Assembly (NCBI GenBank): GCA_002688775.1
Contig: NZDH01000009.1
Span: 1 to 40,629 of the forward strand
DNA length: 40,629 nt
Source of the DNA: Candidatus Woesearchaeota archaeon
Lineage (GTDB): Archaea; Nanobdellota; Nanobdellia; Woesearchaeales; GW2011-AR4
Reading direction: 5' to 3'
This document shows positions 38,444 to 40,611 of this stretch, one piece after another (position 1 is the first letter of the stretch; every line of letters starts with the position of its first letter). The notes below the pieces were generated by a model. That model was not told the origin of the DNA and did not search any database. It saw only the letters and a program-made list of their open reading frames with translations. The position numbers and the translations under genes are program-made.

Positions 38444-39802
38444 TTAACTTTTCTTCCACCTAACGCCGTCTTTAGTATCCTCAAGAACAATCCCTTTTTC
38501 TTTTAATTCCTCCCTTATCTTGTCTGCTTTGGAGAAATCTTTTTCTTTTCTTGCTTTTTCCCTTTCATTGATTAATTTCTTGATATCAGATTTAAGCTTT
38601 ACATCTTCAGTAGACAAAACATTGAAAACTTTGTCAAACTCTAGCATCAGCTTATGGCTTTTCTTGCCCCCTCCTTTTTTATTCACTTCTTTTACAAAAT
38701 CAAATATTGCTGCTAATGCTTTAGGAGTGTCAAAATCATCGTCCATATGCTTTATGAATTCTTTTTCTGTCTTTTCTATTAATTTAAGATCATCTTTTTC
38801 TTTGCTGTCTTTGACTTTAGCAGTAAAATCATTCAATCTTTCAAGGCTGTTCTTAGCTTGTTCCAATAATTCATCTGAAAAATCAATTGGACTTTTATAA
38901 TGAGCTGAAATATAAAAAAACCTCAGCACTTTTGGATCATATTTCTTTAATGCTTCTTTTATTGTAACAAAATTACCCAATGACTTGGCCATTTTCTGGC
39001 CTTTTACATTCAAGAAACCAGTATGCAGCCAATACTTTACAAAAGGTTTCTTGCCGGAAGAAGCTTCCATCTGGGCAATTTCAGCTTCGTGATGCGGAAA
39101 TATTAAATCTCTAGCACCGCCATGAACATCATACTGGGGACCAAATTCTTTTTCAGTTATTGCAGTATCTTCGATATGCCATCCCGGCCTGCCGCCATTA
39201 AACCAAGGATCATCCCATTTCGGCTCGTTTTTCTTTGATTTCTTCCACAAGCAGAAATCTCCTTTGTTGATTTTCTTTTTGCTGTCATCAATCCTTGAAA
39301 CAGCATCTTCTGCTTCCATTGATTTTCTTCCACTTAATTTTCCATATTCCGGAAATTTGGATAAATCAAAATAAACACCATCATCGTTTATTACGTATGC
39401 AAAGCCCTTGTCCATCAATGTTTTTACCTGTTTTTGTATTTCCTTGATATGATCAGTTGCTCTTGCATATTTATCAACAGAATCAACACCCAATTCTTTT
39501 ATATTCTTGAGAAAATCATTTTCAAATCCTTTTACCAACTTTTTTGTGTCGATATTCTTTTCTTGTGCCCTTTGGATTATTTTATCATCAATGTCAGTTA
39601 TATTCTGTAAATAATTAACTTTAAAACCCCTATATCTTAGATATTTGACAATAATATCAAACTGAACGCATGTTTTAGCATGCCCGATGTGTGCAAAATC
39701 ATAAGGCGTGACGCCACAGACAAAGAATTTTACATTCTTGCCTTTACTTGGTTTAAAGATTTCTTTTTTCTTTGTTAGTGTATTGAATACTTTTAGAGGC
39801 AT
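38444..39802 (-). CDS. cysS: Cysteinyl-tRNA synthetase
   Basis: This 452-residue class I synthetase charges tRNA-Cys. It shows FFVCGVTPYDFAHIGHAKTC with the HIGH motif and the first zinc-ligand Cys, NITDIDDKIIQRAQEK, WHIEDTAI (usually W-H-I-E-C), HHEAEIAQMEAS with zinc-ligand His residues, and the KMSKS-type loop KGQKMAKSLGN. The C-terminal helical and anticodon region is complete. The Cys of the W-H-I-E-C motif is Asp here. Its cognate tRNA-Cys gene lies about 0.6 kb upstream on the same strand. Confidence 0.95.
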   Translation of the reverse strand: MPLKVFNTLTKKKEIFKPSKGKNVKFFVCGVTPYDFAHIGHAKTCVQFDIIVKYLRYRGFKVNYLQNITDIDDKIIQRAQEKNIDTKKLVKGFENDFLKNIKELGVDSVDKYARATDHIKEIQKQVKTLMDKGFAYVINDDGVYFDLSKFPEYGKLSGRKSMEAEDAVSRIDDSKKKINKGDFCLWKKSKKNEPKWDDPWFNGGRPGWHIEDTAITEKEFGPQYDVHGGARDLIFPHHEAEIAQMEASSGKKPFVKYWLHTGFLNVKGQKMAKSLGNFVTIKEALKKYDPKVLRFFYISAHYKSPIDFSDELLEQAKNSLERLNDFTAKVKDSKEKDDLKLIEKTEKEFIKHMDDDFDTPKALAAIFDFVKEVNKKGGGKKSHKLMLEFDKVFNVLSTEDVKLKSDIKKLINEREKARKEKDFSKADKIREELKEKGIVLEDTKDGVRWKKS

Positions 39803-39837: not shown

Positions 39838-40224
39838 TTATTCCTTCCTTAAACTTCTCCTTATTGCTCTATTAACTTGGCTTTCACTTAATCCGGGGGT
39901 AGTGGGGACCAATTGGGCAAATCCATCTTCCGGAACACTCCCGATTCTTATGACACTTTTAAGGGAAGCATAGCCGCCTTTTTCAGTATTACCCCTTCCA
40001 ATAAATATACGATACACCTTCCCCTCCAGAAATAGATAATGGATTTGTACATTTGTTGGTCCAACACGTTGCATAGCTAAATGTTCATACGAACTTGGAA
40101 TGATTCTAACATCCCCGGAAGTAGTATCAACTATGCCTTCTAGTTCTCCCTCTTCAGGCCTAAGGAAAAATACTGGAGTACTTCCATCATCTTTCTTAGC
40201 GCTTTCGTAGTAATTTACTTGCAT
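39838..40224 (-). CDS. Hypothetical protein, 128 residues
   Basis: Not recognised. The predicted fold is mostly beta strands (TPVFFLRPEEGELEGIV, VQIHYLFLEGKVYRIFIG) ending in a helix (SESQVNRAIRRSLRKE). No cysteines, signal peptide or membrane segment. A strong ribosome site (GGAGG, then ten bases, then ATG) supports the start. It lies between cysS and the tRNA-Cys gene on the same strand. Confidence 0.6.
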   Translation of the reverse strand: MQVNYYESAKKDDGSTPVFFLRPEEGELEGIVDTTSGDVRIIPSSYEHLAMQRVGPTNVQIHYLFLEGKVYRIFIGRGNTEKGGYASLKSVIRIGSVPEDGFAQLVPTTPGLSESQVNRAIRRSLRKE

Positions 40225-40425: not shown

Positions 40426-40589
40426 TGGAGCGAGGGGCCGGACTCGAACCGGCGAATAAGCGGGATTGGCGCAACATGTCATCGCCTTTCGGCTCATTAT
40501 GCTGCTTTGCAGCATCGAGTTCAAGCAATTTTTTGCTCAAAACGCTCGCCTTAGCCGCTTGGCTTTGAGGTTTTTGAAAAAACCCTCGC
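40426..40589 (-). tRNA. tRNA-Cys (GCA) interrupted by three introns
   Basis: On the minus strand the ends pair as GCGAGGG (40583-40589) with CCCTCGC (40430-40436), then T73 and an encoded CCA. The T arm is GCCGG-TTCGAGT-CCGGC (40437-40453). The D arm is GCC-AAGCGGCTAA-GGC (40548-40563). A normal molecule appears only after removing introns at 40565-40581 (17 bases, 8/9), 40514-40542 (29 bases, 30/31) and 40465-40506 (42 bases, 37/38). This leaves U8, A9, the anticodon stem AGCGG/CCGCT and loop CTGCAAC with anticodon GCA. Each junction falls after the second base of a 3-base bulge, as in archaeal bulge-helix-bulge sites. U73, anticodon GCA and the TATTC variable loop fit tRNA-Cys. Confidence 0.85.
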
Positions 40590-40611
40590 AAAGCGAACTT
40601 TGCTCCCTCGC
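40588..40611 (-). other. tRNA leader with duplicated acceptor strand and hairpin
   Basis: Just upstream of the tRNA 5' end the minus strand contains a second GCGAGGG (40605-40611) and a GCAAAG-TTCG-CTTTGC hairpin (40588-40603). Because the second copy is followed by A rather than the conserved U8, I take the downstream copy as the true 5' end. The duplicate could compete for acceptor pairing or reflect a further, unproven intron. Confidence 0.5.

Follow-up and report, generated by a model that had tools for sequence, protein, structure and literature searches.

A three-intron tRNA-Cys gene with a leader copy of its acceptor strand in a Candidatus Woesearchaeote

The tRNA-Cys locus and its introns

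The window, by which we mean the whole analysed stretch of 40,629 nucleotides, comes from a 48.5-kb contig in the 1.04-Mb, 73%-complete genome of a Candidatus Woesearchaeote. Near the end of the window, its minus strand carries, from G1 at 40589 to U73 at 40429, a tRNA-Cys(GCA) gene interrupted by introns of 17, 29 and 42 nt at positions 8/9, 30/31 and 37/38, respectively (Table 1). The CCA that follows (40428–40426) is not common to relatives and may have arisen by chance. Downstream lies a cysteinyl-tRNA synthetase (CysRS) gene, and this linkage is kept in relatives, although it is linkage only and no charging data are available. Consistent with the DPANN context suggested by the initial annotation, the nearest homologous CysRS genes in named records belong to Candidatus Woesearchaeota/Nanoarchaeota assemblies. 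The CysRS of the window genome is 74–77% identical to those of other genera and only ~50% identical to those of its own genus, whereas its tRNA-Cys is closest to that of its own genus; the existence of two CysRS types, both mostly adjoining tRNA-Cys, suggests replacement by transfer. A 128-aa open reading frame between the two genes (39838–40224) has no Pfam match.

Table 1 Features of the tRNA-Cys locus, in window coordinates
Feature	Position	Strand	Basis and remarks
Leader copy of the 5' acceptor strand (GCGAGGG)	40605..40611	-	Putative place-holder that would occupy the 3' acceptor strand, to which it is paired in the MFE fold
Leader hairpin GCAAAG-UUCG-CUUU-GC	40588..40603	-	3' strand runs into tRNA G1C2; stem position 4 is A-U, U-A or C-G across genomes
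Exon 1, G1-U8 (GCGAGGGT)	40582..40589	-	Spliced alignment and blind search; G1-G7 pairs with 40430-40436
Intron 1, 17 nt, position 8/9	40565..40581	-	Central helix GAGG/CCTC, BHB 4/4; precisely this block missing in G001 and G017, block also missing in G005, G026 and others
Exon 2, A9-G30 (D arm and 5' anticodon stem)	40543..40564	-	Spliced alignment and blind search
Intron 2, 29 nt, position 30/31	40514..40542	-	Central helix CGAG/CTCG, 9-bp inner helix, BHB 4/4; precisely this block absent in G005 (query 79-107), also absent in G014, G016 and G002
Exon 3, G31-A37 with anticodon GCA	40507..40513	-	Spliced alignment and blind search
Intron 3, 42 nt, canonical position 37/38	40465..40506	-	Relaxed BHB; exact absence in G003, G006 and G026 (query 115-156)
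Exon 4, C38-U73 (variable loop, T arm, 3' acceptor strand, discriminator U73)	40429..40464	-	Spliced alignment and blind search
CCA adjoining U73	40426..40428	-	Possibly encoded, possibly chance; missing in relatives
CysRS gene, downstream of tRNA-Cys	38444..39802	-	PF01406, E=6.5e-113

Across the whole window, neither ARAGORN nor Rfam at gathering thresholds gave any match, because the gene is too interrupted. The locus was parsed by spliced alignment against the proposed mature tRNA and by a blind, reference-free search that builds the cloverleaf from left to right and skips only segments conforming to a bulge-helix-bulge (BHB), strict or near-strict motifs being allowed anywhere and relaxed ones only at 37/38. 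The top blind parse had the same three introns as the alignment and scored 50.2, compared with a mean of 20.4 (sd 3.0, maximum 29.5) for 60 dinucleotide shuffles. It yields a mature tRNA-Cys of 73 nt with a complete cloverleaf, anticodon GCA, U8, A14, G18G19, the T-loop TTCRA and discriminator U73. Without the relaxed option at 37/38 the search returned wrong parses, which that rule corrected; comparative data were therefore needed to settle the parse independently. The caller has not been benchmarked on genomes with sequenced mature tRNAs.

The strict archaeal BHB (two 3-nt bulges, a 4-bp central helix and a cut after the second bulge base) is found at 8/9 (central helix 4/4, inner 3–4, outer 2) and at 30/31 (central 4/4, inner 9, outer 2). 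The 37/38 motif is relaxed and falls short of it, with 2/4 central, seven inner and one outer pair. Within the 37/38 intron and its homologues, an invariant GA / (G)ATGA internal loop flanks a covarying apical stem. This motif resembles a box C'/D' or K-turn, and an L7Ae site is possible, on no basis other than conservation and stem covariation.

Intron presence and turnover in relatives

Searching the tRNA-Cys gene against 59 related genomes gave matching pieces that adjoin each other in the relative where an intron is skipped: the 29-nt block in G005 and the 42-nt block in G003, G006 and G026. In all, 27 tRNA-Cys genes were parsed. Each of the three introns is exactly absent in some of them (Table 1); G021 has an uninterrupted tRNA-Cys, and G024 a divergent intron-free one. 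For 16 relatives, the blind search returned an identical or near-identical mature tRNA-Cys with differing, expected intron sets. As far as gene sequences can establish it, the intron edges are proven by relatives that lack each intron exactly while the mature tRNA is unchanged, and the gene qualifies as a multiple-intron tRNA gene, having at least two introns with edges confirmed by intron-free homologues. The initial annotation had proposed these three introns, with their lengths and positions, the mature sequence and a weaker central helix at 37/38; alignment, blind search and relatives bear it out exactly, and the comparison with relatives that it called for went in its favour. It had also named a second, uninterrupted tRNA-Cys gene, with the present one untranscribed, as a possible refutation. 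None was found in the 73%-complete genome: the gene search gave one match, and no other parsed tRNA has a GCA anticodon.

The 27 genes have introns at five positions (8/9, 21/22, 30/31, 37/38 and 59/60), and the same-genus relatives G010 and G007 carry four introns each. Up to three introns per archaeal tRNA gene have been reported (PMC8450103, PMC3218864, PMC4033280). We found no description of four introns in one archaeal pre-tRNA and no paper on tRNA introns in Woesearchaeota, in a literature search that did not cover subscription literature. On the poorly resolved EndA tree, the 8/9, 30/31 and 37/38 introns each require at least six state changes; G003 and G012, although a close pair, have unlike states at three intron positions. 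As read from these genomes, intron turnover is fast and the mature sequence nearly constant. One tRNA-Cys gene (L051, G004) has an 82-nt 37/38 intron in which part of the sequence is tandemly duplicated, a copy of the anticodon arm included (GGGAGCGGCTGCAAAGCAGCC...); this is possibly a snapshot of intron growth.

A full 4/4 central helix was present in 32/34 noncanonical tRNA-Cys introns versus 3/17 at 37/38 (p=5e-8), with the caveat that the edge of some 59/60 introns was picked using the BHB. Across the tRNA genes of the window genome, most noncanonical introns likewise have 4/4 central helices, a result favoured by the caller's thresholds. The blind search confidently parsed 26 tRNA genes there, 20 of them with introns and 28 introns in total; L027 and L029 remained unparsed, and L023 was poorly parsed. 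For comparison, 0.84 introns per tRNA gene are reported for Thermoproteales and 0.21 for archaea overall (PMC8450103). A standard tRNA model detected 16 tRNAs in G009 (99% complete), 11 in G017 (93%) and nine in G023 (96%); it detected 14 in the complete genome G044, from another family, whereas two further families of the order gave 31 and 37. Standard tools, we infer, overlook most tRNAs of these genomes because the genes are so heavily interrupted. Two tRNA regions of the window genome occur identically on two contigs each (L023/L024 on C2/C18 and L025/L026 on C8/C9), one pair near contig ends; these are probably assembly overlaps or duplicated contig ends.

An acceptor-strand copy in the leader

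The interval given by the initial annotation, 40426–40589, stops at G1, although an associated leader element reaches 40611. This element, a copy of the 5' acceptor strand followed by a hairpin, lies beyond that annotation, as do the genome-wide intron richness and the four-intron relatives. An upstream acceptor copy, 14–52 nt before the real strand, was present in 14/14 tRNA-Cys genes with the 8/9 intron and in 0/13 without it, and the duplex energy between leader copy and 3' acceptor strand separated the two groups (p=5e-6). The hairpin between the two copies shows compensatory changes. The MFE fold of the pre-tRNA encoded in the window has the 3' acceptor strand bound by the upstream copy and the real copy paired to the intron. 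The 8/9 central helix had a mean predicted probability of 0.41 when the leader was included and 0.00 when it was left out; for several of the 14 genes, however, ViennaRNA put it below 0.1 even with the leader, and shuffling copy 1 alone had a modest effect. Pairing of the leader with the D-loop was also considered. That correlation is real (p=5e-6), but changes that keep the hairpin break the D-loop pairing, and the hairpin plus acceptor copy explains the data better.

A parallel was found in tRNA-Gln. Among 27 tRNA genes of the window genome, an acceptor copy precedes only tRNA-Cys and tRNA-Gln(CTG), the only two with an intron at or before 10/11, and the 10/11 intron of the latter also uses acceptor nucleotides. 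In relatives, the copy accompanies tRNA-Gln(CTG) in 4/4 genes with the 10/11 intron versus 0/10 without. In tRNA-Gln(TTG), all four genes with the 10/11 intron have a 15–16-bp leader duplex to the T arm and acceptor 3' strand, the acceptor part of which has diverged by C-to-U changes while keeping G-U pairs; without the intron, 1/11 (L246) still has the duplex. From these associations we infer that the leader elements act as place-holders, keeping the 3' acceptor strand occupied while splicing takes place.

Shared ancestry weakens the association statistics, and it leaves some room, though not much, for the leader copy being a functionless remnant left behind when a duplication gave rise to the 8/9 intron. 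Common descent alone could produce the perfect leader–intron linkage in tRNA-Cys, for which only three phylogenetically independent pairs lie on well-supported branches. A relic would not be expected to show the compensatory changes of the leader hairpin or to stay complementary across five genera, as copy 1 does; moreover, the same association recurs in the unrelated tRNA-Gln, in one case with a strand that has diverged but still pairs via G-U.

Less probable still is that the mature tRNA actually begins with the upstream GCGAGGG, so that the stretch between the copies would be a fourth intron in the acceptor stem and the leader would be short. The leader beside copy 1 is indeed homologous to that beside the sole copy in relatives without the 8/9 intron, the GCGAG of copy 1 is conserved in 14/14 genes, and most of the 14 offer a 4/4 central helix at offset 5. 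That helix, however, is mostly UGCG self-complementarity, in most genes has an inner helix of just 0–1 pairs, and is at odds with the covarying hairpin; no consistent BHB was found. U8 follows copy 2 only. In addition, copy 1 is degenerate in places where copy 2 is not (L043 and L053; in tRNA-Gln, U1 in L235/L236 and AGUCUC in the TTG genes), which fits a pairing leader rather than an exon.

Splicing enzymes

The window genome has one splicing endonuclease (EndA) gene, encoding 190 aa with both EndA domains (PF02778 and PF01974). Its nearest solved relatives are the EndA alpha subunit of Nanoarchaeum equitans (3iey_A, the closest), Methanopyrus EndA and M. jannaschii EndA. Across 43 genomes of the order, the catalytic Tyr/His/Lys are kept, as is, with a few substitutions, the acidic L10 segment. 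The CSL/ASL, a loop of ~11–18 residues that lies between YG and LSL and bears a conserved Lys, is missing: in the window genome and its relatives the segment is short and uniform, with a 10-residue gap against 2cv8 in the window genome's enzyme. A second EndA subunit was sought in ten genomes at E<=10, with no hit besides one contig-edge duplicate and one chance hit; the latter, a weak match in G017, was rejected as a short, unrelated-looking open reading frame. The gene thus has the features of the alpha4 type, namely a single subunit of the ~180-aa class, the catalytic Tyr/His/Lys with L10 and no second subunit gene found. From this gene content we infer an alpha4-like homotetramer, although a very diverged beta subunit could escape detection.

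Such a beta subunit, if structural and undetected, would confer broad specificity of the (alpha-beta)2 type, and no strict-BHB rule would then apply. That the closest solved homologue, 3iey_A, is the catalytic subunit of the N. equitans heterotetramer speaks for this possibility, which we nonetheless regard as improbable: the query that finds no credible second EndA in ten genomes does retrieve the beta subunit of N. equitans from the PDB (3e-14), and the acidic L10 self-assembly loop is kept. Alpha4 enzymes are described as narrow, requiring a canonical BHB, and the alpha'2 enzyme can take relaxed 37/38 introns in full-length pre-tRNA (reviewed in PMC6379350 and PMC4033280). Strict BHBs at noncanonical sites combined with relaxed ones at 37/38 fit the rule of a loop-less, alpha4-like enzyme.

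RNase P RNA and RtcB are both present. In three same-genus relatives, rtcB itself (L226 in G010, L227 in G001 and L228 in G017) contains short inserts with in-frame stops or frameshifts, of 30, 33, 12, 33 and 32 nt. Best restoration of the protein and best BHB call for the same excision at all five sites, with 4/4 central pairs in four of them and 3/4 in the fifth. These appear, by sequence, to be BHB introns in the pre-mRNA of the tRNA ligase. The RtcB of the window genome (L229, C18:40122-42944) is a 992-aa open reading frame with an intein (PF14890 and a LAGLIDADG domain), whose insertion site (FDIN|C) roughly matches that of one putative rtcB mRNA intron in G017.

A proposed splicing pathway

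We propose, with a probability of roughly 0.8, that the locus is a functional, single-copy tRNA-Cys(GCA) gene with three protein-spliced BHB introns, processed as follows. In the primary transcript, the upstream acceptor copy would pair with the 3' acceptor strand. The real 5' strand would thereby be free for its GAGG to pair with CCTC of the 8/9 intron, so that the strict BHB could form. The EndA homotetramer would cut this BHB and, independently, the strict one at 30/31. Removal of the 30/31 intron would complete the anticodon stem, the putative outer helix for the relaxed 37/38 BHB. RtcB would join the exons, the real 5' strand would displace the leader copy, and RNase P would trim the leader. 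Because the 8/9 BHB and the acceptor stem are mutually exclusive, splicing at 8/9 should precede final acceptor pairing and 5' trimming; because the outer helix of the 37/38 BHB is the anticodon stem, complete only without the 30/31 intron, 37/38 should be spliced after 30/31. Predicted folds agree with the latter order. Sequence alone establishes the gene, its introns and their edges, the leader–intron association and the enzyme genes; without RNA data, cleavage, order and strand exchange are inferred.

That the locus is instead a decayed or mis-assembled gene with unspliced inserts is barely credible: standard tools see no tRNA and the genome is a 73%-complete, multi-contig assembly, but more than 20 independent genomes share identical or near-identical exons in spite of varying introns, the BHBs are kept and the neighbour is CysRS.

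On present evidence the chances are about even that 5'-proximal tRNA introns in this clade depend on a cis-encoded place-holder in the leader, either a copy of the 5' acceptor strand or a G-U-tolerant mimic of it, so that a strict, loop-less alpha4 EndA could support up to four introns.

Discussion

Multi-intron tRNAs, BHB introns and their turnover are already known. New here is a member of the multi-intron class that combines a loop-less, alpha4-like enzyme, four-intron relatives and leader place-holders, the last as inferred above. Thermoproteales (Pyrobaculum and relatives) similarly have canonical and scattered BHB introns, two or three per gene, with high turnover (PMC8450103, PMC3218864, PMC4033280). 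The present case differs in belonging to another phylum, the DPANN Woesearchaeota, in its two four-intron relatives, in a single alpha4-like EndA without the Crenarchaea-specific loop and in its leader acceptor copies. ARMAN-2 (Micrarchaeum) is likewise a small-genome archaeon with multiple noncanonical tRNA introns, but it has a three-unit epsilon2 enzyme with an ASL and relaxed BHBs (PMC6379350, PMC12397907), whereas here a 190-aa enzyme without an ASL goes with strict BHBs away from 37/38.

The split tRNAs of N. equitans, whose EndA is the nearest solved one by sequence (3iey_A), provide a likeness for the leader, since there too leader base-pairing lets a BHB form. In that organism, however, two transcripts are joined in trans by an (alpha-beta)2 enzyme; here there is one transcript, the leader is predicted to pair with the 3' acceptor strand and not with intron sequence, and RNase P RNA is present. 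An algal tRNA-Cys(GCA) is also reported to have three introns, with noncanonical positions (cited in PMC4090602); it is encoded in a eukaryotic genome, its introns are extremely short and how they are spliced is given there as unknown.

In the accepted picture, scattered tRNA introns are tied to broad-specificity endonucleases with an extra loop, the CSL or ASL. The clade described here is rich in introns and has a loop-less, single-subunit enzyme; the price is a need for strict BHBs and, apparently, for helper strands in the leader. Its four-intron members go beyond the three introns per archaeal tRNA gene given in the papers cited above, and its tRNA-Cys genes, which differ in the introns they carry, offer a natural series in which to study how introns are gained and lost.
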